Source: Bryum argenteum (taxonomy: Eukaryota > Streptophyta > Bryopsida > Bryales > Bryaceae). Taken from it: a stretch of 64,000 nucleotides of DNA. Each line of letters begins with the position of its first letter. Position 1 is the first letter of the stretch. The translations under genes were made by a program, and so were the position numbers. The stretch is taken from contig CM073321.1 in assembly GCA_037043015.1 (NCBI GenBank), forward strand, positions 15,125,001-15,189,000, given 5' to 3'. The notes beneath the pieces were generated by a model. That model was not told the origin of the DNA. It searched no databases and saw only the letters and a list, made by a program, of their open reading frames with translations. Of the stretch, positions 1 through 35,570 are shown one piece after another.

Positions 1-81
1 CAAATTCATGTAATCAGAAAACAATAAGATGGAGAAAATAGAATATGGGAGCCAGCAAGAAGCAGATAGGAAAAAGGGCAA

Positions 82-108
82 CAGTTTAGCTCAAGTCGAG
101 CTATACTG
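82..108. repeat. Isolated copy of palindrome family 1
   Basis: A diverged single copy of the 27-nt palindrome (13-nt arms CAGTTTAGCTCGA / TCGAGCTAAACTG around one central G or C). It has two mismatches to the consensus. It lies about 120 bp beyond the stop codon of gene A, outside its coding part, so it may sit in the 3' UTR or in flanking DNA. Confidence 0.8.
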
Positions 109-225
109 CAAAATAGTAAAGGCCTGTATTAATTACAAAAAATTGTCTGAGTTTGATACAAAATCTCACATGTATATGTGTTTTCCGGCATTTACAGCTT
201 AAATACTATATACTCGATCCAAAAT

Positions 226-1037
226 CTAAGTTGAAGGAGGACCTGGAGATTCTTCTTCTTCGTCACCCACAGGTCGTATTTCAGGCATAGGAGAGGAAGG
301 CGTGGGCGCGGGAGGCTCGATAGTTGGAGGCGGCAAGGACGTGAGTGGTTGCGAAGTAGGACCAGCATGTGGAGCACCAGCATCACCACTCTGAGGAGTA
401 GTGATTGCCATCCTCTGAACCGAAGTTAATTCCTTCCCGGCAGTAAAACTCCGCATCATCTCCATCATACTCTCATGGTGTTCCAAGTCCCTCTGATCGC
501 GTTGCTGCTGCGCAAGGAGCTCTTCCAACTTCCTCCGGTGTGCCTTCTCCTCCTCGAACTTCCGTTGTAGTGCTGCTAATGCCGCACTCTCCTCAGCCTT
601 GAATCTACTTGAGGGTGAGTCCTTCGACATGGGATTACGTTTCCGCTTTGCACTCCCTCTGCCTCCTCCTCGCCCGGGAGCGGTACGCGACTCCTGCGGT
701 GTCCGTGGGGTCGTGTCAATTTCCATGTCTTGCTCTTCATCATCTCCACCGGAACCAAGGCTGTAAGTGTTGCCTTCGCCGTAAAGTTGCCTTCCGCTTG
801 ACCCAGAGTCCTCCCGGTCGGGGACGTTCGCCTCATCGTCGAGGGCCTCGTCATCCAAAGACGCCACAGCTTTGCGCTTGCCCTTCAAGAGCATGGCCCC
901 GACCTCCGGAAACTCGACTTTGTCGACGAAGTAGCCGTTCACGGAGAAGTCAGTGGGATCAGCCCATCGCTGTACACTTGGTCGATGTCTTCTTTATCTT
1001 CGGCATCGAATATGGAGTAGGCATCAAGAGACAACAT
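226..1037 (-). CDS. Gene A 3' exon: acidic, coiled-coil, proline-rich tail
   Basis: The exon begins after TTTTTGTAG at 1038-1040 and ends at TAG 226-228. It opens with SLDAYSIFDAEDKEDIDQ, then shifts frame by one base in the GGG at 963-965 into the long frame (ADPTDFSVNGYFVDKVEF). Then come an acidic stretch, a basic nuclear-signal-like patch (SAKRKRNP), a strongly charged coiled coil (QRKFEEEKAHRRKLEELLAQ) and a Pro/Thr-rich, Glu-rich end. Gene B carries the same kind of tail: acidic region, charged coiled coil, Pro/Ser-rich end. The weak match VQRWADPTDF against B's AKRMDKNDF marks the shared start. I see no enzymatic motif. A role as an oligomerisation or nuclear targeting tail is inference. 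Confidence 0.6.
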
Positions 1038-1113
1038 CTACAAAAAGAAATGTGCAGCTTAGACTATAGATAAAGCTGAAGCTGGAGCGAACATGGTTAG
1101 AAAACAAGCATGA

Positions 1114-1263
1114 CAGTTTAGCTCGAGTCGAGCTAAACTGTATTGCAGTTAAGCTCGAGTCGAGCTAAACTGTATTGCAGTTAAGCTCGACTCGAGCTAA
1201 ACTGTAGGGAAACATTTAAGCGTAAATAGAGTACGTCAGTTTAGCTCGAGTCGAGCTTAACCG
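1114..1263. repeat. Palindrome family 1 array in last intron of gene A
   Basis: Four copies of the 27-nt palindrome: 1114-1140, 1146-1172, 1178-1204, 1237-1263. The first three are separated by the identical 5-nt spacer TATTG (period 32); the fourth follows a 32-nt gap. On the minus strand the first copy met lies 13 nt inside the 5' splice site (donor GTAAGC starting at 1276). The intron at the same position in gene B holds a different palindrome family. Confidence 0.9.
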
Positions 1264-1276
1264 TAAGGAAGCTTAC

Positions 1277-2620
1277 TACGCTTGCGCAGACTACTTTTCC
1301 GCCGGCGTAGACAAGAAAAATATTCTCCTGCTCCTGGCAAAAAAGCTGGATGACCTGCAAATAAAAATCCATCCTCAACTCGATCAGGTACATGTGATAC
1401 CGAGACTCGTTGTACTGCCGCGGCTTCTCGTAAAGCGCATGCTTAGGAGCGCGGTACTCGGTCTCTGGCAATCTCGCAAGTTTTACGTCTTCCCTGATTA
1501 TGAAGAGAAGACGCACGGGCTGCAAGGCTTTCTTGGCTTTCGCATTGAATCCAGCGATCCGTTCGTGCAGGGATGGATAGTACAGCGATGGAATCAACTT
1601 ATAATTTGTCCCTTGGAAGTAGGCAGAATTTTTCGCAAACGCCTCGACTTGCAGGTAATCATTGTCATCCCCGCATATGAAGAACCAGCAAGGTACATCT
1701 TTGAGAGCTGGCTTGTTCTGAGATGATAAGATCGCCATGAACATTTCAAAGAATGGGTGTTCAGGCGAGGAATCTGCGGAGGTGCTACCACTACCCGGAA
1801 TCAATCTGTAGTCGATGATTCCAACGTTCATCTCAGGAGCAACCTCCAGCCATGAGTTCTCAGGCCATTCTCCGAGCCTTTGTGGTGTTATGCGGTAGAA
1901 GGAACGGAATATAACTCTACCCACAGGGCCTATGAACTTCTCGCGCTTTTCCAAGAAAACCTCGAAGAATCTCTTTGCGTAGGGAGAGAGATCCTCGCAG
2001 CTGGTATTCCTGTGTTGGGACTGCCTCTCATCCGCATAATATTTGTCAGGGATTCCCCATTCCAAAAGTGCGCGCTTGGAGGCCTTCGTGACATGGTAGT
2101 CTTTTTTCTTGAACTTCTTCCACGCATCCATGTCAAACTCGTTGTTCTTGAAGATTCCGAGTTGGGGTCTGATCTTGTGGATCTGAAGCTGGGCGGTCGC
2201 CTTCCGCTTCAACCGCTCAACGTACTCCTTGACGGAGTAGCAATCTTCAAGGAGGGTGACTGGTTGTTTCAAAGTAACCTTCGGGTATTCCAGTTTCCGT
2301 GACGGACCTGACCTATTGAGCATGTGTGTACAGAGTTTTCTGTGGGCCGACTCTGAAAGGTTACCGAGGTTCTTGAAAAATTCCCTCGACAGGGTTTGGT
2401 CGTTATCTAGTTTGAACCCTGGCTTGTCACACAGCTGCCTAAAGGAGTAGGGGTCGATAAGGGTCCCTTGCGCGACACTTCCGATCAACTCTGCCCATAC
2501 GTTCCAGAGATCATCGGGGAAGGTGATGATCTTAGCTCATTTGTTAGGGACAAGACCTTGTTCTTCACCTCTACTTGGGCCTTGGCAACATCAATCATGG
2601 CGAACCTATGCCGAATAGAG
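1277..2620 (-). CDS. Gene A exon: degenerate N4/N6 DNA-methylase-like domain
   Basis: The long open part is 1241-2488. Homology to gene B extends it upstream to about 2620 across a one-base deletion near 2530 (B has NELQMITLPDNIWKHW, A has ITFPDDLWNVW). The upstream splice site appears lost: the acceptor reads CAA where B has CAG. The fold order resembles PF01555 methylases: a strand that would end in the catalytic DPPY is here NVGIIDYRLIP; then a hydrophobic strand (CWFFICGD), a later strand (VRLLFIIRED), then FYLQVIQLF and IFLVYAGGK where motif I (DxFxGSG) should be. Neither the DPPY nor the glycine-rich SAM motif is intact, so it probably does not methylate. The donor after VYAGGKVVCASV (GTAAGC) is at exactly the same codon as in B. 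Confidence 0.55.
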
Positions 2621-2724
2621 TCAACGAATTTTTGCAATGCCACAGGAGTATGTAAGATTTCAGATTATAAGTGTGCGTCGAAAATTAAGATGCAGGTGTT
2701 TTGGGCTTCTTGAAACTGCAGTGA

Positions 2725-2817
2725 CAGTTTAGCTCGAGTTGAGCTAAACTGCAATGACAGTTTAGCTCGAGTGGAGCTAAACTGCAATGACAGTTTAGCT
2801 CGACTCGAGCTAAACTG
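2725..2817. repeat. Palindrome family 1 array in middle intron of gene A
   Basis: Three copies at 2725-2751, 2758-2784 and 2791-2817, separated twice by the identical 6-nt spacer CAATGA (period 33). They lie about 60 bp inside the intron that follows the ParB-like exon (donor GTAAGTATT, first base at 2880). Read through in frame the array gives a repeated RAKLSLQF peptide, but the clear donor and the matching intron in gene B argue that it is intronic. Confidence 0.9.
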
Positions 2818-2880
2818 CGACGGGAAATTATTTGCAATTAAAGAAGGTAGAAATGCAATGCGGCATGAGGTAATACTTAC

Positions 2881-4313
2881 GTCAAAATTTGCAAATTGTG
2901 ACAGAACTTGCTTCGCTTGCACTTGTTTCTCCGCCACCCCAGCTGCTGCATGTTTGTTGGCTGGGCGCCCGTAGTTCTCCCACATGGTGCGGGCGGCAAG
3001 GATATTCGATGCCCATGTCGGCTTAAACGGAGTGAAATGGTTCACTCTGTAATAGAACGCCGATATTTTGCGGAGCTTGGCTTCATCCTTCGTCCAAAAT
3101 ACGAAAGCAGACCACACCCAAAAGTCCTTACGAATTGTTTCTATGACTTTGGACTCAAACATCTGCTTTGAGGTGGCAACACTGTGTTGGCCGTTAATTA
3201 TCCAAAACTCGCAGTCCTGCATATCTTCAATGCCGTTCGGCTTGACATCCAATTTAGGCATCACGCAGAGCGTTTGCTTTTGCAATCTGTCGGGCATATT
3301 GATGAGAAAGTTCATCAAGTCCGTCTTGCCCCTCTTCTCGAATGCCCGAATTGTCCATTGTGGAGGGGACTCGATCATCTTCATTGTGTCGATCTCCATC
3401 TTCGTGTCAGGTTTAGGAAAGACGAAACAGTCCTGATAGTCTGTGAAGAACTTTTGATAGATGAGGTTGACGTTCTCGAAGTCAATTTCCTCCACGGTAT
3501 TAACGTTCTTTGGAATGCATTGAATAGCATCGTTCAAAGCCGTTAAAGCGTCCTCTTCCGAAATGAGCATGCTCTTTTTCTTCTTCGCCACGGCCGACTT
3601 CTTCACGGGAGCTTCTCTCCTCTGTACGGGCGAGTCAGAAGTCGTGGTGGTTGTAGGGGCCGGCCTTGACGCACGTTGCGGGCGTGATGGGGTCCTGCTC
3701 TGTACGCCGCTCCCAGTTGCAGTCAGCCCAGATCCCTCTAGTGGAGCTTTTCCTTTGAGGTGTATCGTCTTCGCCATAATGTCAGCTTGAGTTAGAGCCG
3801 AGACTACAGATTGCAGTTTTATTGCGAGCTGCTTGGCCTTGAGAGCTCCCCCCCTGTTTGGTTTGCCATGCTTTAGTAAGCATATCATGTTTCAGTGTTG
3901 TTTTGATATCATCGAAACTGGACGCCTCTAAGCTCTCCACCAACTGCCCCAAGTCAAAAGGAGTCTGCTTGATATCGATAAGTATGGCGTAGTTGTAGGC
4001 ACACTCCTTGTCATTCTCCTTGAAGTTTGTGCACGTCGCTATGACTTCCATCTTTGTTTCGTGGTCGAATTCAGTGAACTTGGACTCAATGTCAACGTAC
4101 ATGGGGTCTTCTACATCTCCTTTGTATGTGACGACAAGGGTGAGGAATGCTGTGTATGGGATCCACCTCGCAGACCACGAAAGCACTTTTGATGGGTCCT
4201 TGAATTCCCAGCAATCCAACTGCTTCGTGTCGTCGCCATTGTCTTCGTCAGAATCCAGTGGCCTAAGTTAGAAGAAGTGCTGGAGCGCCTCCTGAACTCG
4301 TGCCTTCTCTTGA
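2881..4313 (-). CDS. Gene A exon: acidic N-terminal region plus ParB-like domain
   Basis: Two overlapping open frames (4219-3782 and 3888-2665) join if one base is changed in the G7 run at 3848-3854: KAWQTKQGG continues as ALKAKQLAIKLQ. After a Thr/Pro/Lys-rich linker (APVKKSAVAKKKKS) the protein holds a ParB-like core: LCVMPKLDVKPNGIED, then FWIINGQHSVATSK, then AFYYRVNHFTPFKPTWASN. The NGQH(R/S) signature is the ParB/sulfiredoxin-fold box seen in phage-type ParB proteins. Gene B has MIINGQHSIKGTSD and then AKPTWGNQIVSCRNIW at the matching places. The acceptor at 4314-4315 follows TTTATATTCACAG; a TAA at 4268-4270 interrupts the first codons unless a nearer acceptor is used. The exon ends with FANFD before GTAAGT. 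DNA or nucleotide binding is inferred from the family. Confidence 0.6.
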
Positions 4314-4392
4314 CTGTGAATATAAAGGTTGTGTTAGTTTATAGTATCGGTCTGGATACCCATGAAGCGTAATTCTTACATCCTAGTACATG

Positions 4393-5002
4393 CAGTTTAG
4401 CTCGAGTCGAGCCAAACTGTTTAGAACTTTGTCTACTACAGTTTAACTCGACTCGAGCTAAACTGCATAGACCTCTGTCTACTAAAGTTTAGCTCGACTC
4501 GAGCTAAACAGCATGGTACATGCTACCAGTCATGTCATTTCTGCAGACCTTACTCTTATTTCGGAACTACGTCTTGAGTGAATTTCGTTGTTTACTTTGG
4601 CGACAGTTTAGCTCGAGTCGAGCTAAACTGTTGTTGACACATGCCTCTACAGTTTAGCTCAAGTCGAGCTAAACTGTACAGACATGTGTCAGTAACAGTT
4701 TAGCTTGACTCGAGCTAAACTGTAGAGGCCTGTGTCAACTACGGTTTAGCTCGACTCGAGATAAACTGTAGCTGCTTTTGTGTAGGCTTTTTTTTATTCA
4801 AAGGGCAGTTTATAGTTGGCTCTAGCTCTACTTGTATTTTAATTACATTGTTACGTCATTTAAGTACACTCTAAACCGTAATCCTTTATTTGCATTGTCA
4901 TTTAAAATTCGTTGATAACAGGGGCAGCAGTTTAGGTTGACTTAATGTGAGATATGTCACCTAGCGTAACGTCTACAGTTTAGCTCGACTTGAGCTAAAC
5001 TG
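4393..5002. repeat. Regularly spaced palindrome array (family 1) in first long intron of gene A
   Basis: Eight 27-nt copies start at 4393, 4439, 4485, 4604, 4650, 4696, 4742 and 4976. Within the two clusters the period is exactly 46 bp: 27-nt palindrome plus 19-nt spacer. The spacers differ in sequence (for example TTTAGAACTTTGTCTACTA, TACAGACATGTGTCAGTAA). The spacer at 4631-4649 is close to the reverse complement of the one at 4723-4741, so 4604-4768 is itself a large imperfect inverted repeat centred near 4686. The last two copies are each followed by a related stretch (TAGC-GCTT-TGTAGGC), indicating a longer duplicated unit of about 234 bp. Confidence 0.92.
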
Positions 5003-5141
5003 TAGCCGCTTCTATGTAGGCGGCATACTATACAAAGGGCAGTTTCTAGTTTGCTACAGCTGAACTACATTTTTAATTGCAGAGAGGACTCAAATCCATT
5101 TGCAAGCGACTTAGTGGGTTTTTGCTGATGATGATGATCAC

Positions 5142-5206
5142 CTGTCGGCCATTTTTCTTGTATATTCGGCAAAGGACTTCTGTGATGCACTTCGCTTGGG
5201 CTTTAC
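5142..5206 (-). CDS. Candidate small upstream exon of gene A
   Basis: A 65-nt open segment bounded by an acceptor (TTCTTGTGCAG) and a donor (GACAG followed by GTGATC). It encodes a basic peptide, KPKRSASQKSFAEYTRKMAD. It fits between the candidate first exon and the palindrome-filled intron. There is no counterpart in gene B, so support is only splice-site context. Confidence 0.3.
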
Positions 5207-5571
5207 CTGCACAAGAATGTGATGGTTATGGATTGGGGAGGTCTGTGAGGAACTAAGTTTGATTGTGAGCATTTGTTGTGTATTATTAGGTGCTTATTGA
5301 ATACATATGTAATTGGAATCAGAGGCTACAGAATTCTTTGTTGGAAGCGGAAGCGTGGGCTTTCTTTTAACAATACTAAGCAATCCAGCATAACATGTTG
5401 CACCTCACGTGAAATTCAAACATGTACGAGCTTCAAGGCATAGCATCAGCACTGAATTTTGAATGGAAGTGCTATGTAGAATGCACAACAATGAAAGCGA
5501 GAATACAAAATACAAAAAAGCATAACAAGTCCTGGCTGACTGATTCAAACACAAACTTTGTGTTAGCTTAC

Positions 5572-5734
5572 CTCGATATTCTTCTTCAAATACGACTATC
5601 TCCAAGTTCGAAGCAATTGAATCTCGAACCCGATCCTCAGCAAGTCTATCTCCCACAATTGTATCTGCACCTTCAGATTCGCCATTCACATTAGAGGGCA
5701 AGCTTGACTTCATACACAGAATGTGAAGAAGCAA
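5572..5734 (-). CDS. Candidate first exon of gene A
   Basis: Opens with ATG at 5732-5734 (MLLHILCMKSSLPSN), runs through an acidic stretch (SEGADTIVGDRLAEDRVRDS) and reaches EIVVFEEEY before a good donor (GAG followed by GTAAGC). No family is recognised. Its link to gene A is by strand, distance and donor phase only. It could equally be an isolated open frame. Confidence 0.3.
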
Positions 5735-7379
5735 ATCAAAGGACCTAGATAGATTTCATGTACAATAAACTTGCTAGACTTCAGGGTTGAAATTCGCTTT
5801 GAGAATTTCCACACTGTCGACGAACGAATGCACAAAAATTAACTACAAGCATTTCAAATACAAGTTCCACACTGTCGGTGTACATCAATCCCCGAAAAGC
5901 ACTAAATCCTCATTTCTCAGCCACAGCTCAACACACCGACTGCAAATTCCAAGTTGACTTCAGTTTAACAATCAGCATAGGGTTGCTAGAGGTCTTTAAC
6001 AAAAAATCCAACTGAAACGAGGGATCTAGTGTACCCAAAAATGTGTTCAGCCAAGCAAACCTGACTAAAAATGTACAAAATGGGCATTGCTATGAAAATC
6101 AATTAAGAGAAGACGCTATTAGGGTTCGACAAATTTTACACTCATGAAAAAACAGAAAGTGTCCGCAGAAGTGCTCAACCCTGAAGTGCTCAACCTTGAA
6201 GTGTCTGTGCTCAGACAGACCGATTCACAAACGTGGGTGCCAGACGCGCCATATAATACCACGGGGAAGACTCAGTGTAAGGAAGCAATGACGAACCTTA
6301 GCCGTTCGGAGGACATCAGTAGGGTTACGGGGAAGACTCAGTGCAAAGAAACCCTACAAAACAGGTAAGGAACAATGACATACCTAAGCGTAGCGCCGGA
6401 AACTTGCAGCCGCGATGAAAAATTAGTAGCAATGAACGAGCAGCACCGGCGATGCCGCAATGAACATTCGCACCGGCGATGCCGCGAAAAAGCAACCTCG
6501 CTGGACCTCCACCAAGCAGGACCTCACCGCTCGCATGTATGACCTCGCAGGACCTCCGCCACGCTGAAGCTCCGGAGCCGCGCAGAAGTAAATCCTCCGC
6601 CACAACAAAGTGACCTCCTCGACGCGGCAGCAACACCACAAAATTGGCCGCTCGCAGAAGTAGTCCAAGCCGCTCTCCGCAGAAACTCCAAGCAAATTGG
6701 CGACAAAAGAACTACAAACTTGAGCGCAAAACGACAAAACATGGAACCGTGAAATCCAGCGTAAAAGACAAGGAGGAATGCAAGCGCAAAACGACAAACA
6801 GAGCGGAGACTCAAAACAGTGCGGAGGAGATAGGGGAGTAAGTGCGCTTGTGAGTGGGAGCAAATGCGCCTGAGTGGGGGGATGGGTTCTGGCCAGTGAG
6901 TGGGGGGATGGAAACTCTGCTGAATGTCGGCGGTGATGGGACGTCGGGATCCCATCATCAGCCGCTTTTCCATGCCCATGATTATGTGCATGGGCATGGT
7001 CATGCGCACATACATGGCCATGCACATGATCATGGGCATGACAAACTTTTTTTTTTTTTTTTTTTTTACTTGATAAAATATTGTTCCCGTTTAACTTATG
7101 TTTTGAGTAATTCTTTCACTAATTCTTGGCTTAGCTTTTACTAAGATTTGTCTATGTTTGTGTCCAAGTTTTGTCCAAATTTTGACTAAGTAAATGTCTA
7201 GGTTATTAATGGAAGTTTTTCACTAAATTTTGACTAAATTTAGTAATCTAAATTCTTAGTTTTAAACACAAAATTTAGAGAGTACATTGTTCCCTATGTT
7301 TTGTAAACAAAAAGTGTGTCATTTTTAGTTTATATTTGCTGTTGTATGCATGCATGAGAAACCATTTTAGAGTAAAAAT
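5735..7379. other. Spacer with short direct repeats and low-complexity DNA
   Basis: I see no convincing gene here. The 17-nt word ACGGGGAAGACTCAGTG occurs at 6261 and 6327. Long frames at 6325-7039 on the minus strand have low-complexity composition and no family. A GC-richer block (6400-6900) gives way to AT-rich DNA after a poly-T run at about 7041-7062. Confidence 0.5.
6958..7036. repeat. CATG/CATGGGCATG low-complexity repeat
   Basis: About 80 bp built from variants of CATGGGCATG, CATGATTATG and CATGCACATG, so nearly every hexamer is its own reverse complement. It is read as His/Gly or Met repeats in open frames on both strands, which explains the spurious ORFs here. Confidence 0.75.
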
Positions 7380-7460
7380 AATTCTCCTTGAAGGTTGTGC
7401 ACGTCGCTATGACTTCCTTCTCTGTTTCGTGGTCGAAGTCAGTGAGCTTGGAGTCAATGA
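7380..7460 (-). pseudogene. Duplicated fragment of gene A N-terminal coding region
   Basis: About 80 bp closely match 4012-4092 inside gene A. Both encode FDHET-EVIATCT-FKEN on the minus strand. It is an isolated partial copy 3.3 kb away with no neighbouring gene A sequence and no palindromes. It shows that this coding segment exists in more than one copy. Confidence 0.8.
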
Positions 7461-9170
<1,710 letters not shown>

Positions 9171-9402
9171 CTGAGGCTGAATTCGTCGTCCATGCCCGTG
9201 TGAAAGTCTTCTCGAAGTACAGGCCCTTCTGCAACATGAGAAGTACTTGGAGCTTTTCATCAGGAATCTTGAAGGGCATGCTTTTCACATCGTTAGTGCC
9301 CATCGGCTCCGGTGAGCTGTACTCTGCACCTGAGTCATCGGACTCAATCTCTCGGCTCGCACTCTGTGTTGTCCGACTTTTGTAGCTCGAGTTGTTCATC
9401 AT
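9171..9402 (-). CDS. Hypothetical exon, unknown function
   Basis: An open minus-strand segment starting MMNNSSYKSRTTQSASREIE, acidic and Ser-rich, then KSMPFKIPDEKLQVLLMLQK, and ending at a plausible donor (CTCAG followed by GTACTG). It could be the first exon of a small gene running toward 8.7 kb. No family is recognised and no downstream exon can be defined with confidence. Confidence 0.3.
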
Positions 9403-11847
9403 AAACGATAAAGCAGCAATCTGTGTTAATGTTGCTCACTGTGAGAAGTGTGGATATTCCAGTTCTTAAGTTTTCAGTGGCCACGCATGGCTATAAGTGA
9501 TGCAAGATTTGAAAACTGCACAACTCTTGACGTGATACAATTGCTACGAAAGATGATTGATATCTCGAGCAAGAGTAGGAAAACATTTTTGAAATAAGTA
9601 ACCTAACATACACATGATGCTAAGCAATATGTTTGAATAATTTCTGGACAATAAAAATGAATAATTTCAGTCATAATGCTTTACAAGTTTTATTTGTAAT
9701 ACCTTTTTAGCTTGCTTGTAAAATTATAAATAAATTTTACTTAATGCTGTTTTTTTATAAATTATATTTTAATAAAGTATAGATAAATATAAATGTACAT
9801 TGCAGTGTCGCGTTGTTAATGCATAATGATATATTGTAGACTGAGTACTGTAAGATAGTCTTATAGAAAAGCTTATTCATTTAAAAGTATATTTTTAACA
9901 AATAATTTCAAAAGTATAATTTCAATAAACGTAAATAATTTTTACAATCCTTAATTTGAAGTATGAACATCTTTTTAAAAAAGAAGTGTCCAAGATTAAG
10001 CACAATACTTAAAATAAATATAAATTATATTATATTGCGTGGAATACATCATAATAAGGCGTAAAGAGTTTCATATGTTTATGACTCATTATAATTATTA
10101 CAACGAAAACAATATATGATGAAATAAACTCCATCCGGTTAAAACACGTAATTCATTATAATGGTATTATTCACTGATTTTGAGAAAATTAATGTAGGTT
10201 TAGTTTGGGTCCACCTAAATGTACCCACACAGTACATTTGGCTCAACTCAAGCTCAGTTTTCATCAATTTGATAATCTGAATATTCCCATTATAATAAAT
10301 TACGTGTTTTAAACTTACGTTTAAGCTTAAGAAGATCCAGTACTAAAAAATTTCATTTCTTTAATTGGTTTTTATAAATCTTATTCTTATAATTTCACAA
10401 GGTTAAATAATTTAAGATATAAGCATAGAATAGGTTCAATTTCTCACACATAGACTTTCTTAAATACTCAGATGTTTATTTAGTTATTTAATCCTCAAGA
10501 ATGAAAGTTAAAATCTAATATAACGTCGTAAAATAAGTAATACTAATGCTAAAAATAAAATCGCTGCACTGTTGTCTCCAACATGGACTCACTGAAATTG
10601 AACTCTCCGTGAAGATGCGGAGTTCCAACGGCTAGACGGTAAGACCCCGTGCACCTTTACTATAGCTTTGCAGTGACAACCTTGATTGAATGTGTAGGAT
10701 AGGTGGGAGGTCGTAACGTGCAACGTCACCACCAATCTTGAAATACCACTTTTTCGTTTAAGGATGTCTAACTGCCGAAACAGAGGTTGAACACTGCATG
10801 GTGGTTAGTTTATCTGGGGCGGATGCCTTTAAGTAAGGGGCGCTTGGATGGTAACATCCCAAGCTAATCTGGCTATATGCTGAAATCTTCATTTCTTGGA
10901 CGATCAGCAGGGATCTAATTAAAAATTGACAGAAAAGATACGTAATTTATAATTTGATAGTTACTGAAATTTGCAGAATTGAATTTCAACTTTAAAGATC
11001 AATGAATGTATTGATTGTATTTGATAAATGCATTTTTCAAACAAAAAGATGTCCATATTTGCAATTGATTTTGAACATTTCAATACAAAATCCAATTGTA
11101 AGGTTAAACATCTACAAACGAATTAAAACGTTCAAAAGAAATCTTATTTTGGTAAGGTTTATGTTAAAAAGAATTAAATGACATATATACCATTGAGCAT
11201 CTATACAATGAAATTAAGTTTAAATATAAAATTTTATGTATATTAAAACTTCTTTCATTGAATATTCCAAAGTGTATTTAACAAGATTTACAAATTTATT
11301 TATGAAAGAGTATAAATTTTTCATCGTTGATAACCTTGAAGATTTCATTTAAAATTTAATGTTAAAATATTTGATTTCATCAGTACAGTTTGTAGTTGAA
11401 TCAATTTTATACTCTACATAATATACTAAGATTATATTTACATTGTCTGAATTTACAATTTGAGAGATATATTTTTCATTTATGAATAAATAGTATATAA
11501 CATAATATGTAATAAATATCATTTATCATATTAAATTATATATAATTATCAAATATATTACGTATATACGAAGAAGTAAACAAAATTTAATAAAAGTTAT
11601 GTTTACTCGTACATTTTTAACGAGATATTGCATATGATAGAATTAATTTGAAGTGTATAATAATAAACATTCAATTAAGAATTGTTAGCAAGTGCATACA
11701 GAAAAAAATGTTAGTAGTATTAAACTTATAGATAAATAGCTTAATACTTAATAAGACTTATGCATCAATTCATTAAATATGGACTTTGGACTTATTATGG
11801 ACTTTAAAACATGGGGAGATACCTCCATCCATGACCTTAAAATCTAC
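9403..11847. other. AT-rich intergenic DNA around a mitochondrial rRNA insert
   Basis: Apart from the rRNA fragment at 10584-10880, this stretch is AT-rich with no open frame of note. I see no gene, no inverted-repeat ends and no palindrome copies until 11848. Confidence 0.6.
10584..10880 (+). pseudogene. Mitochondrial 26S rRNA domain V fragment (NUMT)
   Basis: The segment reads as part of large-subunit rRNA domain V of the plant mitochondrial type: TGAAATTGAACTCTCCGTGA, AGACCCCGTGCACCTTTACT, GTGTAGGATAGGTGGGAG, CTTGAAATACCAC, GGATGTCTAACTGC and CTGGGGCGG occur in the right order. The common bacterial and plastid variants differ at several of these words. Only about 300 bp are present and the flanks are AT-rich nuclear-like DNA, so this is an organelle-derived insertion and not a working rRNA gene. 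Ends are approximate because similarity fades after CTGGGGCGG. Confidence 0.8.
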
Positions 11848-12241
11848 ATATTTAGCTCGAGTCGAGCTAAATTGTCTTGCATGCATGTTCCTGTAGTTTA
11901 GCTCGAGTCGAGCTAAACTGCAATGTTCATTCGTATCTCCAGTTTAGCTCGAGTCGAGCTAAACTGCTGTATGCATCTTGTCGGACAGTTTAGCTCAAGT
12001 CGAGCTAAATTGTAGCATATATCTTGTGAAATTATTTAGCTGGTGTTGAGCTAATCTATAGCGCGGAACAGTATTTCCACTTCTGCTCGAATCAGGCTTT
12101 ACTGCTAGGGGTTTAGGTTAGACAGTTTAACTCGCGTCGAGCTAAACTGATTGATCAAATACATTATGCAGTTTAGCTCGACTCGAGCTAAACTGTAGAA
12201 TGTATTCTCTTAGTAACTTTAGCTCGAGTCGAGCTAAACTG
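11848..12241. repeat. Nine-unit palindrome array, 46-bp period (family 1)
   Basis: Units start at 11848, 11894, 11940, 11986, 12032, 12078, 12123, 12169 and 12215. Every step is 46 bp except one of 45. Each unit is the 27-nt palindrome; spacers are 19 nt (once 18) and differ in sequence, for example TCTTGCATGCATGTTCCTG, CTGTATGCATCTTGTCGGA, ATTGATCAAATACATTATG. Units 5 and 6 are heavily mutated but stay in register. Downstream come a branch-site-like TTCTAAC and ATTTCAG just before the ATG of gene D, so the array probably lies in a 5' intron. The layout superficially resembles a CRISPR array, but nothing else supports that and the organism is a eukaryote. Confidence 0.95.
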
Positions 12242-12326
12242 CACTTGTTCATTTCTCATACAGTCTTGGAGTTGTGACCATGTTTTTGCCTAATTAATTT
12301 CTAACCTTGTGAAGACATATTTCAGG

Positions 12327-15210
12327 ATGGATTTCTCTTCAGACGATGACACTTTTGGCGATGCACCTATGAATCCTGGTTTATTTGCTGCTCAAGTTGT
12401 TCCTCCACGGCTCTGGACAGGGAGGACTGTTGCAATGCTTGATTCCGATGGACTCGGAATCGCTGAGGGTTTACTTCGAAACCTACGATCTGGCGTTGTA
12501 CCGGATTGTAATGGCCTACTCGGCGATTCCTGAGTTGTGGTGTTAGTTTCAACTTTGTTTGTTGAGGTCGAGGATTCAGACGACTGGATGTACTCCTTCA
12601 AGTCGTGGCCCATCCAACAAGTCCTCCTAGACGGTGTTACTCTTTTTGACCATAGTCAGCAAGATGTTTACAACAGATGGGTCCCGGAACGTAGTCGGCG
12701 GCAGGGGTCATCTCGAACTCGATCCTATGATAATTCTTCAAGGAATGATTCTACTCCAGTTTCGCGCAAAGCACAGTTTCTGATGACAGTGGAGTCAATC
12801 AATGTGGTCGCATGTAATACCTGCTGTAAGGACAACTGTGTTCAACTATACGCAAGGGAGAAGATTAAGGTTCTCAGGTGTCGCATGTACGACAAGACAA
12901 CTGTGCAGTTCAAGAATCACGTCAAACTCGATGTCCATAGGCAATTTCACAGAAATGTTGAAAGGCGAAATGTAGTCACTTTGGAGGGTATTGATGTTTG
13001 TCCAATTGCGTGGAGGAAGATCATTGGCGCGAGCAACGGTACGTTTTATCGCAACGCCCAGAGTGCAGCTGATGGGCATGAGACCCAGTTACACGGGAAC
13101 ACGGGCTTGCGAAAGCCTAGGAGGCATCCGATTGTTACTTCTGCCGTCTTAGGGGCAATACTTGATAGACATGCCGATCACATGCCTCACAAGTCCCGGA
13201 GCCTTCCATCAGGGGAGAAGGTCGTTGCCAACGTACTTTCTTCAAGTTTTAAGTGGAAGGACCAGATTCCACTTCTTGATCATCACCTTCAAGAGTGTGG
13301 GCTCCCGCCGGTGTCTACTTCAAACCTTAGTAAGATTCGCCGCCTCAGCTATCCAGAATACTATGCCAAAAGATCGGGGGACAATTTCGCGCGTTGTTCC
13401 AAGTGTGATGAGTTACAATCACTGATGAAGCTCACTCTTCCCAGGACACAATCGTCGCTTATATGGTCGAGGAAGTTGAATTTGCACTTAGATTCCGCAT
13501 ATGCGCATAGAGACTTGTACTACCTCAACCGCTTTAGGTCTAAGGAGTCTCCTCAAGATATTTTGACTATTATGCATGACAAGATGGACCACTCAAAAAC
13601 AACTTCACCTGCCTTGTTTCATAAGGTGAAGAACTTAGACGGACTCATGAAGTTACCTCTTGCAGTTCCGGGAATTCTTGCTCATGGTCATAAAGACCAG
13701 CGATACGCTCATTATGGACTAGATGTTTATTCACATGATGCCAATTATACGGTTGGCTTGTTTGCAAAACTTCTGCGAGATCTCAAAGCTGCACCTAAAT
13801 CCTCATCTAGATAGCTCTTTACAGAGCCCCCATCGCATCCACTATATACTGCTCTTTTACGAGATTCAGAGGTGTGTATGGATCCATCAGGCACCATTCC
13901 TGACATCCTGGTTCCAGCAAAGTCTTTGCCTCCAATTTTGATTGTCCAAATGGATAATGCTGTGAGTGATAACAAGAATAGATTCGTCTTCAGTTTCTGG
14001 TCTCTTTTGGTAGCAAAAGCGGTTATTCCGAGAGACATATGTAAATTTTATGCTCGTTGGTCACACTCATGATGACATAGATGCGTTATTTGGGCGTTGG
14101 AGCATGGCGTTGCGAAAGGAGGATTATCCTACCATCCCTCTTCTCATGAAATCTTTAATGAGAATAAAGAAACTTCATGTTATTCCACACCTCGTTTAAG
14201 AGGTTCCGGACTTCAAGAAATTCATTGAAGAGTGGATGTTAGTTGGCGATGAAGCATTGGTAGGGCATCCGAAAGCGCATCAATTCAAGTTTTACATGGA
14301 TCCAAGTGGGTGCCCCGTCATGAAGTACAAGATTTTCTGTCACGACGAGGAATGGCTTCCTAGAGGTGATCATGCTGGTATTAAATTGTGGAAGGAGGAT
14401 TCTGAAGGCAGATCATTATGGCCACGTGGTGAACCGGATGCAATGCGTCCAAACGAGATGCGCCATTTGCCTGAGGTAATGAAAGGGATTTCAGGCTTTG
14501 TTGATCATTGGGAACGATTATCACGTGAGTCAATTGAATTGCGGAGATTGTACGAGCCACTCTCATATTATTGGAGCGGCGTTAAAGATGCTCTTTGTAT
14601 ACCCATGGATGTACTTGCATCGTCGCAAAATGGGATCCCGTCAAGTTTCGAGGAACCATTACCGTTACAATATGGTTTTTGGCGGCCAACTCGACTTGCA
14701 CATGCTATGGAAGATGAGTTTACTTTAGAAGGGAATGTACGCGAAGAGTACGACGACGATGATCATTTTGTTGGCCACAGACATGATCGTCCTGCTCCGT
14801 CATTTCGAGTTGGACGTGACCTTTATAAGGGTTATTTTGTTGCACTACGTCCATGCGGCACTGATGGCTGGCCTTTCTGGCTCAGGCGACCAATGTCTGA
14901 TCTAAATTCAAACCCACACCTACCCAATACGGTCGACATCCAGTTCTTCCGTCCAATGTTACGCTCCAAAGAAATTCTGAAGTATTACACAGATTGGAAT
15001 ACAAATAGAAAGCTTTGTTGGACTGTTGAGAAAGGTGTAGATGTATGTTCGCAACCTACAGATGCTATTTTCACTACTTGGAAATCAAGAATTACGCATT
15101 CTGACGAGGAAAGCAGTGAAGGTATAGACGCAATTATTACAATACCCAAGAAGCAGGTCGAAATCATCAAGGCTTCTATACGGGAGCTTGCTTCATCTTC
15201 TCAAGAGTAG
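12327..15210 (+). pseudogene. Gene D: DUF7869-like, transposase-like protein gene (broken)
   Basis: Starts MDFSSDDDTFGDAPMNPG just after ATTTCAG. One frame runs to about 14.02 kb with TGA at 12531-12533 and TAG at 13812-13814. An extra base near 14025 shifts the frame. A TAA at about 14197 follows, and the last open part is 14236-15210. Recognisable order: a basic region with FARCSKCDELQ (zinc-binding-like CxxC), HDKMDHSKT, then PPILIVQMDNAVSDNKNRF and, after the shift, LVGHTHDDIDALFGRWS. The DN...ENKNR and VGHTH(E/D)DID signatures are typical of DUF7869 proteins, repetitive genes with an RNase-H-like arrangement in early-diverging plants and animals; I assign this from memory of the family. 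TGA and TAG could come from CGA and CAG by C-to-T change. The family-1 array lies directly upstream. Confidence 0.7.
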
Positions 15211-15654
15211 TCTTCTAGTATATAGTATTTATTATGGAAGTAGGTGTGATAGTACTTAAACTTGGTATTGACATATATATTACTTTGATATTTAGTATAT
15301 AGAGTATTATATTTTTGTACTATTTACTATCCACATTCAATATATTTATTTTGTATAAGAAGATTGTTTAAGTTGACTCCATTATTATTATCAATTGAAA
15401 GAAAATTATTTTTTGTTGGTATGTTAATCTTGACATGTATAGTATCAAATATATGTATGCTTGGAAACGTTTTTTAAGATAAACATATTTTCTAAGATTC
15501 AAGAGGTCTCATATCATCTCCAAATATAATGGAAATTAGTAAATTCCGAGTACATATGCTTACGGTGAAACCCCTCTAAATGTTGATTTTTGCTTCATCC
15601 GTTGTCTTGTTTTAATTTGGGAGATAAAAATGTTCCAAATATAACGAATATGGG
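15211..15654. other. Short AT-rich spacer after gene D
   Basis: AT-rich sequence without open frames or recognisable repeats. It probably holds the 3' end of gene D, but I see no clear polyadenylation signal. Confidence 0.4.
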
Positions 15655-16005
15655 GTTGTGTGGGTGAGTGGTTGGTGAGATGTGAGAGCAAGTTTTGGGT
15701 CTTCTATCCCGAGCTACTTGTGATGCTTGTGGGGCTTGGGATGTTTAGAAGTGCTATCTGATTAGAACTTGCGAGCATGTTGAAGAATCGCCGCCTGTAT
15801 CATCGAGAACTCTGATTAGTGTGGTCGATGAGGATGTTGTGAATGCCTTCGTGGGCAGCCATTTCTGATAACTTTTTGGTGATTATTTGAAGTTACTTCC
15901 CTCGACCATGTGCTTTAGGATTGCATGTTGAACACGATCAATAGGACTTGATGAATAGCTATGTCACCAACTTGGTGTTGGTATCAGAGATGTCAAAATG
16001 CATGT
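15655..16005. repeat. Satellite unit 1 (~350 bp)
   Basis: First of three related units. Shared words include GATGTGAGAGCAAG, GGGTCTTCT, GATGCTTGTGGGGCTTG, GATGAGGATGTTGT and AATAGCTATGTCACCAACTTG. The other two units are at 19433-20120. The tandem array was split by the element at 16013-19432. No coding capacity is seen. Confidence 0.75.
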
Positions 16006-21161: not shown

Positions 21162-22022
21162 ATGGTCGGGGACAGAGCTTTGCGTACCCGGAGTAAAATC
21201 ATCCAAGCTGACATTCCAATGGCGGAGGATGCCCGGGCGCAGTTGGTGCAAGACCTCACTCGGATGGGGTGCGCGGGATTGTACCGGGTGCCCTGGAACG
21301 TGGAGGACGCAGGGATCATCGAGGAGGCCGTGTCCGGACAAGATCCACCAACTTTCGCAGACAACCCTGTCCGAGCTAAGCCGCATTTTTGGCAGGAGGC
21401 ATGCTGGAGGGCGACGTACGGCTTCCCGGATTCTTCCACCAGATACATACAGGTGCGGAATGATCCCTCCCTCGGTGAAATGTTCCACAACCCAGTGCAT
21501 GAGCATGACGGGTACCGAGTGGAGGATTGCGTGAATGCTCAGGAGCGGCGTTTGCTCAGGTTCGTGGCCACGATCCTCAGCCCGGAGAAGCCCCAGTTCG
21601 TCTCGAACAGGCTCCTGAAGGCGATCATGGAGTCCTACCCAGTCCGGAAGCGAATTGGATGGGGATACATCCTCGAGGAGGTGATCATCCGGGCTTCGAG
21701 GAAGACCATCATCGCAAAGGGCTGCCCCCTGGCGCCATTCATGTACCATTTGTACGCGCACACAAAGTCGAAGACAGATCTTACGTCCACGGGTGTTGGA
21801 TCCGGAAGTCGTGCTACAAAGCCCAGTCAGCCCAGACCGGTGGCCAAGAAGAGGGATGCCCCCTTTCAAGCAGCTGGAGGCTTAAGCCGAAAGCGGAGGA
21901 AAAGCGCAGGTGCTTCTCGTTTGGCTGTTGCTGACGATCCAACTGCAAGAAGCAGTATTTTGGGTATAACAACTGTAACAGCCGCCCGCACATTGTCTAA
22001 AGATGAAGTGCCTGATTATTAG
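21162..22022 (+). CDS. Gene B N-terminal domain, 'putative plant transposon protein'-like
   Basis: 286 codons from ATG to TAG. A helical region (RAQLVQDLTRMGCAGLYRVP) is followed by LRFVATILSPEKPQFVSNRL, LKAIMESYPVRKRIGWGYI and LEEVIIRASRKTIIAKGCPL. This order (a 'remain to the end' helix, a choice helix, then a 'G-L-T-IF-H' helix) recalls the putative plant transposon protein domain (PF20167), often found beside plant retroelements. The match is by pattern only. A Lys/Arg-rich linker (GGLSRKRRKSAGASR) looks like a nuclear signal. The frame continues past the TAG straight into the ParB-like domain, so the stop is a mutation and not a natural end. Gene A has a different domain in this place. 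Confidence 0.5.
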   Translation: MVGDRALRTRSKIIQADIPMAEDARAQLVQDLTRMGCAGLYRVPWNVEDAGIIEEAVSGQDPPTFADNPVRAKPHFWQEACWRATYGFPDSSTRYIQVRNDPSLGEMFHNPVHEHDGYRVEDCVNAQERRLLRFVATILSPEKPQFVSNRLLKAIMESYPVRKRIGWGYILEEVIIRASRKTIIAKGCPLAPFMYHLYAHTKSKTDLTSTGVGSGSRATKPSQPRPVAKKRDAPFQAAGGLSRKRRKSAGASRLAVADDPTARSSILGITTVTAARTLSKDEVPDY

Positions 22023-22604
22023 AAGATTGCGACGACGCCTAAGGAATTTTGGGATAATCACACGAAATGCTTCTTCTTCGATTTGGAATCTGTAGATGTG
22101 ACCATCGATCAATGCATCTTTGCGAATGATCAATACATCATTCAAACCCTTCAGAAGGACATAATGGAGAGCGTTATGGTTAGTCTTGTCAATATGATTG
22201 ACGTTTGGCAGAGACAGAAGGTTTGCTTGACGCCTGTCAATAAGAATAATTAACTTCTTAAAAGGAAGCCTTCGAAGTGGGAAGATATCAAGGACGGAAA
22301 TTTCATGATCATAAACGGCCAGCACAGCATCAAAGGCACTTCAGACTGGAGGTTGCAGAGCAGATCGCTGTAAGAGGCTTTGCACATGGAGTGCATCATC
22401 GTGTGGTCCCTCAATCCATCTCAGCTGAGGGCTATTTCCAAATTTCATAACATCGCAAACCATTTGGACCATGCCAAGCCAACATGGGGCAACCAGATTG
22501 TGAGTTGTAGAAACATTTGGACCTCGCTCGATCGTCCCGCCGAGTACAGCCTTAAAGACAAAGAGAGGGGTGACGGCGTTGTCTTCAACGAGGCGAATTA
22601 CAAG
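22023..22604 (+). pseudogene. Gene B ParB-like domain
   Basis: Same frame as the preceding segment, with TAA at 22251-22253 and 22371-22373. Matches to gene A in order: TKCFFFDLES, MVSLVNMIDVWQRQKVCLTP, GNFMIINGQHSIKGTSD, HMECIIVWSLNPSQLRAI, AKPTWGNQIVSCRNIWTSLD. The INGQHS box is intact. The exon ends NEANYK at donor AAG followed by GTTAGT (22605), the same place where gene A has FANFD followed by GTAAGT. Confidence 0.65.
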
Positions 22605-22625
22605 GTTAGTTTGCATTTCCGCTTG

Positions 22626-22646
22626 TTATCGTCGGGTTGACAATAA
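22626..22646. repeat. Palindrome family 2, single copy in first intron of gene B
   Basis: A 21-nt palindrome with 9-nt arms TTATCGTCG / CGACGATAA around a 3-nt centre, here with mismatches in the right arm. It sits 21 nt inside the intron that is equivalent to the gene A intron carrying the 33-bp-period family 1 array. Confidence 0.75.
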
Positions 22647-22720
22647 GGTTCTTCTATTACTTGATTGATTCTTATTATCTAGCTTGCGTTTACTTACCAG
22701 CACTTTCTGGTAAAATTCAG

Positions 22721-24041
22721 AGTTTCATGGACGCTGTCGTGGAAAGATTCCAGAACATCAATTCCAACGGTGAAGGATCTAAGATTCAATCCTTGAAAGA
22801 TCTGAAGAATGAACTCCAAATGATTACTTTGCCGGATAATATCTGGAAGCACTGGCAGGAATTCCTTACCTTGTACCACGACGGGGAAATTATTGACCCA
22901 ACCACGATGGAGCCCTGCAAGCTCGCCAAGGAGTACAGGACGCACGTTCTGAAGCGGGAGTTCTTTGAACGTTTCGGTTGGTTCACGGACAAGGACTTTC
23001 AAACCGTGGTTCAGCATCTGCTTACGTTGACCCCCGGTCGAAATGCACCGTATTTCAAGATCTTAGTGAACCGAACAAAATTTCTCGTTCCCGACAACAT
23101 GTCATGCGCCAATTAGGTTGAGCGGCATAAGCGCAAGAAGGTGGTGATGCAAGAAATCTTGGATCTGAAGCCTTTGCTGAAATTTGTGGAGAGTGGCGGT
23201 GATGTAATAAAGTCAACGTGGTCGGCCTGGAAAGCTAGGCACAAGTTCACGTCCGCTACATGGGATCATCTTATCGCACATATATCTGCGGATTTCTTCA
23301 CGAAAAGACTCCGCTATGAGGCAAGACATAAGCGGGCAAAAGATATGGTCAACGTTCATTCCGAGGTACAGTTTATGATGAAAAGGTTTATGGCCTTGAA
23401 ATACCGATTACCCGGGAGAGCAGGAGGAGTACAGATGAGAGGAATAGACTAGGCCAACAGGGCGTTTGTTCAGAGATCTATGTATACTTACACTACTCGG
23501 CCGGTAAACCTTGCTGTATTGGATGTTCTGAACATTCCACGTTGCCCCGCGTCCGACACACGAAGTGCCATCGATCTATTCTTGAACTTCATGCAAGAGG
23601 AGTTCGAGCCAAAGATCGATACTCCAAAGATTTGGCTCTTCATCATTCTTAGCAAGGACAACATACGGGTCGCCTCAGCATTTGCTGCTCCGGAGCTCTT
23701 TGGATACAAGACGAAGGTCTCTACCCTGCTAAAGCAGAAATGCTAGACAACTTGTCAAACCGCTTTGTTTCTCCGGAAGTGACACTCCTCTTCTTGTTCA
23801 AGAAGGACGACGAGTTTGCCGATTTAGCAAAGAACTTGATAAAGGATACATATTCCACCCCCGCAACTTGTTTGTACTATAACGACATCGCCAAGAATAC
23901 AGAGGCGAAGTGGAGGCATTACGCAAGTGAACTCTGCATGGAGTTTTACCTTGAAATACTTCACGCGTGTGCCTCACCCAGTGAGGCAGTGAGTACGTCA
24001 TCGGGGTTTACGCCGGCGCAAAGTTTCTTCTAGCGGCGAAG
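22721..24041 (+). pseudogene. Gene B degenerate DNA-methylase-like domain
   Basis: Begins at ATTCAG|AGT (SFMDAVVERFQ) in phase with the previous exon. Matches to gene A: NELQMITLPDNIWKHWQEFL, KREFFERFGWFTDKDFQ, RPVNLAVLDVLNIPRCPA (place of DPPY), KIWLFIILSKDN, then after a frameshift near 23718 LYPAKAEMLDN, TLLFLFKKDDEFADLAK, ELCMEFYLEILHACASP, and after another shift near 23980 EYVIGVYAGAKFLLAAK (place of motif I). TAG codons occur near 23114 and 23451. The donor AAG followed by GTAATG at 24042 coincides with the gene A donor. Catalytic and SAM-binding residues are not conserved. Confidence 0.55.
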
Positions 24042-24059
24042 GTAATGACACATCCTTTG

Positions 24060-24282
24060 TTATCGTCGAATCGACAATAACCTTTAGTTTGTACGCAGCT
24101 CTCGGATTGTATTGATAGTAATGTTCCCATTAGCTAGCCCTTATCGTCGGGTCGATGATAACCACCAGTGTTGTATGTAGCTCTGAGATTGGATTGTTAG
24201 ATATGTTCTCATACGCTAGCTCATATCGTCAGGTCGACGATAACACTTGACTTGGAAGTTGATATCGTGGGGTTGACTATAA
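24060..24282. repeat. Palindrome family 2 array in second intron of gene B
   Basis: Four copies of the 21-nt palindrome at 24060, 24141, 24223 and 24262. The first three are 81-82 bp apart and the DNA between them is also related (GCAGCTCTCGGATTG against GTAGCTCTGAGATTG), so these are tandem units of about 81 bp. They occupy the intron equivalent to the one that in gene A holds the 32-bp-period family 1 array. Confidence 0.85.
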
Positions 24283-24366
24283 CATTCCGACTCGGTTCAC
24301 ACTTTTGAAATGATTGCGTCATAATTTCTATGCAAATGTTCGGAGCGTACTTTTAAGGCTTCACAG

Positions 24367-26340: not shown

Positions 26341-26459
26341 GTACATGCATCTGACCCTTACTATTTTGGGTGATTCTATATTTCATGGAGTCTTCCATCC
26401 GGCACTCTAGAAACTGGTTCTAGTTATATTTTCTAATATGAATTCATTCGTCTTGATAG

Positions 26460-34899: not shown

Positions 34900-35570
34900 G
34901 TTAGGTTGAATTCCCGAAGATTGAGAGACTACCATAACAGGCTTGAAAAAAAAAAACAAGGGTTAAAAGTGCTTGAAATTGCTGGGAGGGAAGCGAATGG
35001 AAGCTGCGGGTGCACCACGGTTGGATGTGGAACGGCTTGCACTGATCTGCCGCTCAACACAGGGTGCTAGTCAGCGTGGGCGACCGCGGCGATACAAGTG
35101 GGAAAAATCGTTGTGCCCATGCCTTTACGGTGGCCGGAAAAACGAAGCGCGCGCTGTAAAAGGCGTGGTTTAGGCCAACTGATCGCTTGTGACGCTGGCC
35201 TATTGAGCTCTTCATCTGACCCGTCTTGAAACACGGACCAAATAGTCTAACATGTACGCGAGCCGGTGGGCGGCAAAACCATTAACGCGCAAGGAACCTG
35301 AGAAGTGGGAGTCCGTTCAGGGCGCACCATTGACCGATTGTGATCTTCTGTGAAAGGTTTGAGTGTGAGCACACATGTTGGGACCCTAAAGATGGTGAAC
35401 TATGCCTGAGCAAGGCGAAGCCAGAGGAAATCCTGGTGGAGGCTCGTAACGATATGACGTGCAAATTGTTCGTAAGACTAGTCAAACCATTTAGTAGTTG
35501 ATTCCTTTCGACGTTTCCCTCAGGACCTCGTGTACAAGTTTTATCACGTAAAGCGAATGATTAGAGGCAT
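34900..35570. other. Spacer between host-like gene and MULE
   Basis: Contains an A-run at about 34948-34958 and moderately GC-rich DNA without a supported frame. Confidence 0.4.

Follow-up and report, generated by a model that had tools for sequence, protein, structure and literature searches.

Palindrome arrays in a giant moss DNA transposon: candidate operators for a ParB-like protein encoded by the same element

The locus

We analysed 64,000 nucleotides of contig CM073321.1 (C1 below) of the moss Bryum argenteum, positions 15,125,001 to 15,189,000, and refer to this whole stretch as the window. At 11848..12241 of the window stands an array of nine 27-nt palindromes with the consensus CAGTTTAGCTCGA-S-TCGAGCTAAACTG. 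This array is part of an 18,028-bp DNA transposon, element A (1..15657, + strand), whose left end lies at C1:15122630, ~2.4 kb outside the window, and whose right end lies within it. Element A has a transposase gene of the DUF7869 type (12327..15210, + strand; interrupted in the window copy) and, on the opposite strand, an accessory gene that is predicted to join a ParB/sulfiredoxin fold to a DNA-methyltransferase fold. Our subject is the palindromes and the protein that might read them.

The units start at 11848, 11894, 11940, 11986, 12032, 12078, 12123, 12169 and 12215, and recomputation gave the same steps of 46, 46, 46, 46, 46, 45, 46 and 46 bp that the initial annotation of this DNA had reported. 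Pairing between the two arms is complete (13 of 13) in two units, reaches 11-12 of 13 in five, and falls to 7 of 13 in the units at 12032 and 12078, which are worn. The claim that palindromes are conserved and spacers are not also holds. Mean pairwise identity is 79% for the palindromes (89% without the two worn units) and 30% for the spacers (33% without the worn units), which are near random in sequence, shuffled spacers giving 27.4% (p = 0.04). The density of palindromes is far above chance: these 394 bp hold seven with at least 11 of 13 pairs, while 2000 shuffles gave eight altogether and at most one per shuffle. Gene D, upstream of which the array was said to lie, is the transposase gene; its frame runs from 12327 and adjoins an acceptor-like TTTCAG, and the ATG lies 86-479 bp downstream of the array, the near edge of the array being 86 bp before it.

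The extent of element A was read from its relatives. Near-full-length relatives of the array occur at ~40 places with 80-92% identity (best 40 of 528 candidates), and homology to nine 20-kb sister neighbourhoods extends on both sides of the array. In the eight sister copies inspected at the right end, this homology breaks off at window 15657, give or take a few bases. The right terminal inverted repeat (25 bp, 15633..15657, + strand) ends CGAATATGGGGTT and matches the left repeat at 24 of 25 positions; indeed, the terminal sequence recurs inverted at C1:15122630, where the left repeat was read in locus L027. A 20-base terminal motif has 116 exact occurrences in the genome, often paired in inverted orientation at a distance of 12-21 kb. 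Of 10 sister end pairs, 8 have an exact 4-bp target duplication and 2 do not, and comparison of the flanks at the window copy's own ends gave no 4-bp target duplication. An open sister transposase frame of 947 aa (L015) matches DUF7869 with an E value of 9.2e-42.

Several further observations concern the element itself. The left end of the window copy lies inside a frame that by eye resembles a retrotransposon gag/protease (L027). Close to this end there is a NIF-type phosphatase domain (L027:6029-6688, E 1.8e-9), possibly a captured gene. At window 10647-10872 an Rfam match to bacterial-type large-subunit rRNA (87 bits) lies inside the element and is common to several sister copies; perhaps it is a piece of organelle rRNA carried by the transposon. 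Finally, 84 of the 116 exact terminal motifs are on contig C1, which makes up 44.1 Mb of 258.8 Mb. A Ceratodon relative has the locus tag KC19_VG, which we take to denote the V chromosome, and it is possible that C1 is a sex chromosome or does not recombine for another reason.

The site and its distribution

The unit of recognition appears to be a 9-bp half site, TTTAGCTCG, two halves standing around three free bases. From 82 to 5002 there are sixteen further palindromes of this kind in the window, spaced by 32, 33 or 46 bp and sometimes irregularly. A single copy is at 82..108. Four are at 1114..1263 (steps 32, 32 and 59), at the end of the methyltransferase-fold frame and beyond it, in a probable intron; three are at 2725..2817 (period 33), between the ParB-fold and methyltransferase-fold exons, again in a probable intron; and eight are at 4393..5002 (steps mostly 46), upstream of the ParB-fold frames. 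In the window copy no palindrome scoring at least 18/27 was found at 5.0-11.8 kb or in the stretch that begins at 12.3 kb and ends with the element, and none of at least 20/27 in the element's left 2.4 kb. The sites are near genes rather than element ends.

The core TTTAGCTCG-NNN-CGAGCTAAA occurs 6193 times in the genome, 4929 of these in the A-C/G-T-centred form. The variant TTTAGGTCG-NNN-CGACCTAAA occurs 106 times; when C or G is allowed at base six on either side there are 6389 sites in all, which leaves 90 asymmetric ones (6389 - 6193 - 106). A further type, TTATCGTCG-NNN-CGACGATAA, occurs 127 times. All the reversed control patterns gave zero genome-wide, and no palindrome was found in viral contigs. 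Among perfect-arm sequences of the form N6-XYZ-NNN-zyx-N6 in 255 kb, XYZ is TCG 108 times and every other triplet at most once, although the 108 are not independent because much of the 255 kb consists of element copies.

The first 100 exact sites listed (C1, 0-1.57 Mb) were compared with the listed copies of the ParB part, the ParB lists being the best 114 of 862 and 150 of 712 candidates. Of the 100 sites, 71 have one of 8 listed ParB copies no more than 10 kb away; with shifted positions the average was 10.8, and 71 was reached in 11 of 2000 shifts. The 46-bp spacing, which the initial annotation took to be strict, holds within the array and not as a general rule: it is the commonest gap among the same 100 sites, yet it accounts for only 8 of 64 adjacent gaps below 300 bp.

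Each unit could form a hairpin as RNA, as had been suggested, and one could imagine hairpins acting in the transcript as a small-RNA precursor, in splicing or as a decoy. The folded array RNA has a z of -12.9 against shuffles, though this is expected of any inverted repeat, and several site groups lie in probable introns. However, selection as RNA should favour G-U over A-C, and no such preference was found in 115 units (18 G-U, 20 A-C, 28 other mismatches). Three free central bases between fixed half sites are also better suited to a protein dimer. In our opinion the hairpins can form, and it is highly improbable that they are what the sites are for.

Two other groups deserve mention. At window 57389-57529 two sequences, 114 bp from each other, resemble the palindrome weakly (19 and 21 of 27). 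In locus L014 five palindromes with the same core and other outer arms (CCCATTTAGCTC type) follow one another at steps of 53, 53, 53 and 52; this group lies outside element A, ~475 bp past the right end of the copy in that locus.

The accessory gene and its relatives

The ParB/sulfiredoxin-fold part of the accessory gene is at 2818..4267 (- strand): the fold is predicted for 2818-3891, with the motif IINGQHSVA, and 3782-4267 is the open frame before it. The exon at 1241..2536 (- strand) has the predicted DNA-methyltransferase fold. The next open frame on the same strand (226..993) is basic, charged and coiled-coil-like by eye, and has no Pfam match above the cut-off. The two fold assignments come from structure comparison of predicted models. 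Residues 163-289 of the first model matched the fold of the ParB/Srx nucleotide-binding domain; its mean pLDDT is 66, with block means of 86-97 for residues 151-280. The second model matched the N6A/N4C DNA methyltransferase fold. By sequence, neither solved structures nor NCBIfam gave anything significant for these domains, and Pfam gave sub-threshold matches only. The canonical catalytic motifs of such methyltransferases are motif IV, [DNS]PP[YFWH], and motif I, FxGxG. Each was found in 0 of 29 aligned sequences.

We chose 20 paralogues from 151 matches (best 150 of 712 candidates) to the ParB piece of a related element, C (L012), spread over 48-84% identity, took 801 bp downstream from each match end, and scanned these for any palindrome with at most two mismatches, all four bases present and at least four G/C, irrespective of motif. 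This blind scan after the ParB exon returned 25 palindromes, and all of them are the core motif; they occur in 18 of the 20 paralogues. Each of five sets of dinucleotide shuffles gave 1-2 palindromes; with the threshold one step higher they gave none. As for the two remaining paralogues, L050 has a 20/21 match and L040 has none.

The core is also found in a foreign contig. A scan of prokaryote contigs for the pattern returned a sole record, a contig of 4327 bp (L028) placed in a cyanobacterial metagenome bin. It encodes a 963-aa transposase relative, 64% identical over 928 aa to the element A transposase, and has palindromes of 27, 26 and 23 of 27 upstream of that gene and two weak ones (20/27) downstream. 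Among 101 homologues of the two accessory exons, 23 contain the translation of the palindrome, mostly directly after the conserved exon end; similar loose peptide patterns would be expected ~0.5 times by shuffling, and peptide letters are not proof of DNA letters. Among 51 transposase homologues, one has a site footprint of any type. These comparisons between elements and species support one part of the earlier suggestion that the palindrome is either selected or converted, namely selection, since diverged paralogues and the foreign contig have the same core in the same position.

The foreign contig also bears on which protein reads the sites, for it has a transposase and palindromes and no ParB match on its 4.3 kb. 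Like the place of the array directly upstream of the transposase gene, this would suit a DUF7869 transposase that reads the palindromes as internal, subterminal-like transposition sites; TnpA binding sites in En/Spm elements are a parallel. However, the sites cluster by genes and between the exons of the ParB gene, and none was scored toward the element ends. We consider this reading unlikely.

A second element in the window, B, has a paralogous gene of the same predicted folds at 22002..23991 (+ strand), with a ParB part at 22002-22538 that contains stops and a methyltransferase part at 22715-23991. A palindrome of the TTATCGTCG type at 22623..22646 lies between the two parts, in an apparent GT-AG intron, and more follow within 24057..26147 (at 24057-24282 and 25855-26147). 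The sites of A and B have the TCG-NNN-CGA core in common, and their outer arms are wholly different. The group at 25855-26147 lies inside a long open frame (25387-26373) with the recurring peptides YRRTDD, YRRPED and YRRPDD.

In element C, too, palindromes lie between the ParB and methyltransferase parts. Among 50 listed sites of the TTTAGG type, 43 are within 8 kb of a listed ParB copy and 7 are not (33 ParB copies on C1), with offsets of 272, ~2.7 kb and ~4.2 kb. The 106 symmetric G-type sites of the genome, against 90 asymmetric ones, suggest a clean C-to-G change of the code in element C; we rejected this because mixed and asymmetric units share one array, so that base six of the C sites is better called tolerant. 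This check covered 22 loci of the C clade (16 plus L029-L034); locus L090 was without a site.

The different arms of element B are relevant to yet another explanation, that a host transcription factor binds the sites and that the element captured this factor to drive its own genes. Sites upstream of both genes and between exons are what one would expect of it. A host factor does not easily account for another outer arm in B, nor for the proximity of 71 of the first 100 listed sites to ParB copies, and we find this explanation very unlikely.

Age and decay of the array

Upstream of the transposase gene, each of nine sister copies has 10-17 units of at least 20/27, mostly at steps of 45 and 46; the window has 8. 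In three arrays that were compared, the 3' units (L023, L013, L021) equal the units of the window, each with private spacers. In the 5' units of L023 two spacers alternate in a 91-bp repeat, in L013 they do so partly, and in L021 hardly. Such alternation in the 5' parts of sister arrays suggests that what the window shows is the old end of a longer array of tandem repeats. Its 46-bp period is a product of tandem duplication. The proposal that the array was built by targeted insertion finds no support, as the 5' part of L023 is a plain tandem duplication with repeated spacers. A CRISPR-like array was rejected, since the spacers are common to the copies slot by slot and are not locus-unique.

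Nine copies were aligned, the window included (L017 was dropped, its match starting three bases late), and the same two slots are worn in all nine. Divergence between copies is 0.084 for palindromes, 0.108 for worn units, 0.110 for spacers and 0.083 for the flank. The nearly equal divergence of palindromes and flank counts against conversion and against constraint on dead copies; moreover, each unit keeps its own variant across copies. Palindromes are unprotected after insertion, and therefore constraint, if there is any, acts on the few active elements.

Such neutral decay, together with the ordinary tandem duplication seen in L023, is what a plain minisatellite without function would give. 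Yet a minisatellite gives no reason for the core to keep its position in paralogues that have diverged and to recur there in a foreign contig, and we can hardly credit it as an explanation of these sites.

Presentation of the hypothesis

We propose, with a probability of about two in three, that the palindromes are operators for a transposon-encoded dimeric DNA-binding protein, most likely the ParB-like/methyltransferase-like accessory protein. The arrangement of two 9-bp half sites around 3 free bp is typical of a homodimer site, and the ParB fold otherwise belongs to dimeric site-loading proteins. We favour self-binding by the ParB-like protein because of this homodimer shape, the predicted ParB-type fold of the protein, the position of the sites near genes, and a likeness of the arms to the KorB site that is discussed below.

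The element-encoded dimer would bind the paired TTTAGCTCG half sites. Bound upstream of both genes and between the accessory exons, it would mark the DNA of its own element. The purpose of such marking might be regulation, keeping host silencing off, or joining the element ends and the transposase. Arrays would expand by tandem duplication; sites would be kept in active elements while spacers drift, and the copies would decay after insertion. That the ParB-like protein rather than the transposase is the reader is something we infer, and the weakest step is regulation or anti-silencing as the purpose of binding.

A number of observations weigh against this hypothesis. The ParB match is to the nucleotide-binding domain, a single Foldseek match falls below an E value of 0.001, and TM-scores over the whole chain are low, the best match having 0.24/0.45. 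The helix-turn-helix domain with which ParB proteins read parS sits after that domain, and since model confidence is low after residue 290, the reading head is not visible in our model. The reader could be the transposase, which these elements also contain. Of the first 100 listed sites, 29 are farther than 10 kb from every listed ParB copy. After insertion the palindromes decay as fast as the flanks. None of the 101 accessory-exon homologues has a footprint of site type B or C. Sites of the C clade have either C or G as their sixth base, with asymmetric units within one array, and a distinct site code is clear for element B only, from one window copy and 127 genome sites.

One may go further and speculate about a complete marking system in a eukaryotic transposon, similar to that of ParB proteins, which act as CTP-dependent clamps at their palindromic parS sites. 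A clamp would load at dozens of the element's own palindromes and spread, the inactive methyltransferase-fold domain would serve as reader or shield, the element would be kept self-recognised and open against silencing, and site codes would have drifted in relatives. We find this larger picture doubtful, and offer it tentatively.

What the hypothesis of ParB-like self-binding provides is a concrete candidate site with thousands of copies; its core is conserved around three free central bases, and a paralogue has a second code. It makes the function of a ParB-methyltransferase gene testable with one protein and a few oligonucleotides.

Other features of the window

Fragments of eukaryotic large-subunit rRNA lie at 34943-35501, and a MULE transposase domain at 37078-37734 (E 4.6e-11). 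A long open frame at 43242-45728 has MIF4G and MA3 domains, as in eIF4G-type translation factors, and is probably a host gene.

Comparison with known systems

The architecture is of a known kind. The Ectocarpus element Sola1-1_Ec32 is a 21.5-kb Sola1 transposon whose ParB-like plus methyltransferase gene runs opposite to the transposase; comparable elements of green and red algae are cited with it (PMC12477816). Element A resembles it as a giant DNA transposon in which one opposite-strand gene has ParB-like and DNA-methyltransferase domains. That study already suggests binding and modifying of the element's own sequence. Here, unlike there, candidate target sites are named ('palindrom' is absent from its main text), and neither motif IV nor FxGxG is present in the methyltransferase part of any of the 29 aligned sequences. 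The identification of the sites appears to be what is new. Titles and abstract beginnings in the open-licence literature gave no description of such palindromes together with these genes.

The Sola superfamily has 4-bp target duplications and terminal inverted repeats and was reported in the moss Physcomitrella (PMC10741241, PMC3627910). Element A resembles Sola in the two features compared, the 4-bp duplications (8 of 10 sister end pairs) and the 25-bp terminal inverted repeats.

In bacteria, ParB domains are found fused to adenine methylases (PMC5512222), and the KorB operator is TTTTAGCGGCTAAAA, that is TTTAGC-G-GCTAAA (PMC11790492). The moss site shares with the KorB site a reader of ParB fold, if our proposal is correct, the palindromic form and the TTTAGC/GCTAAA arms; six bases may agree by chance. 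It differs in the inner TCG...CGA and in its eukaryotic transposon setting.

The closest functional model is VANDAL/VANC. The anti-silencing VANC proteins of Arabidopsis VANDAL elements recognise motifs that are specific to the element and have multiplied through tandem duplication, the VANC21 motif being nine bases, YAGTATTAY, by ChIP-seq and EMSA (PMC5735166). Both systems have an element-encoded protein, arrays of a short motif in non-coding parts, tandem duplication, and a motif that differs between related families, with the partial exception that some sites of element B lie in a long open frame. Unlike VANDAL, the moss elements have a palindrome of 21-27 nt, 4-bp target duplications and a DUF7869 transposase. 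Beside VANDAL/VANC, they may be a second case of transposons evolving a private DNA address code.
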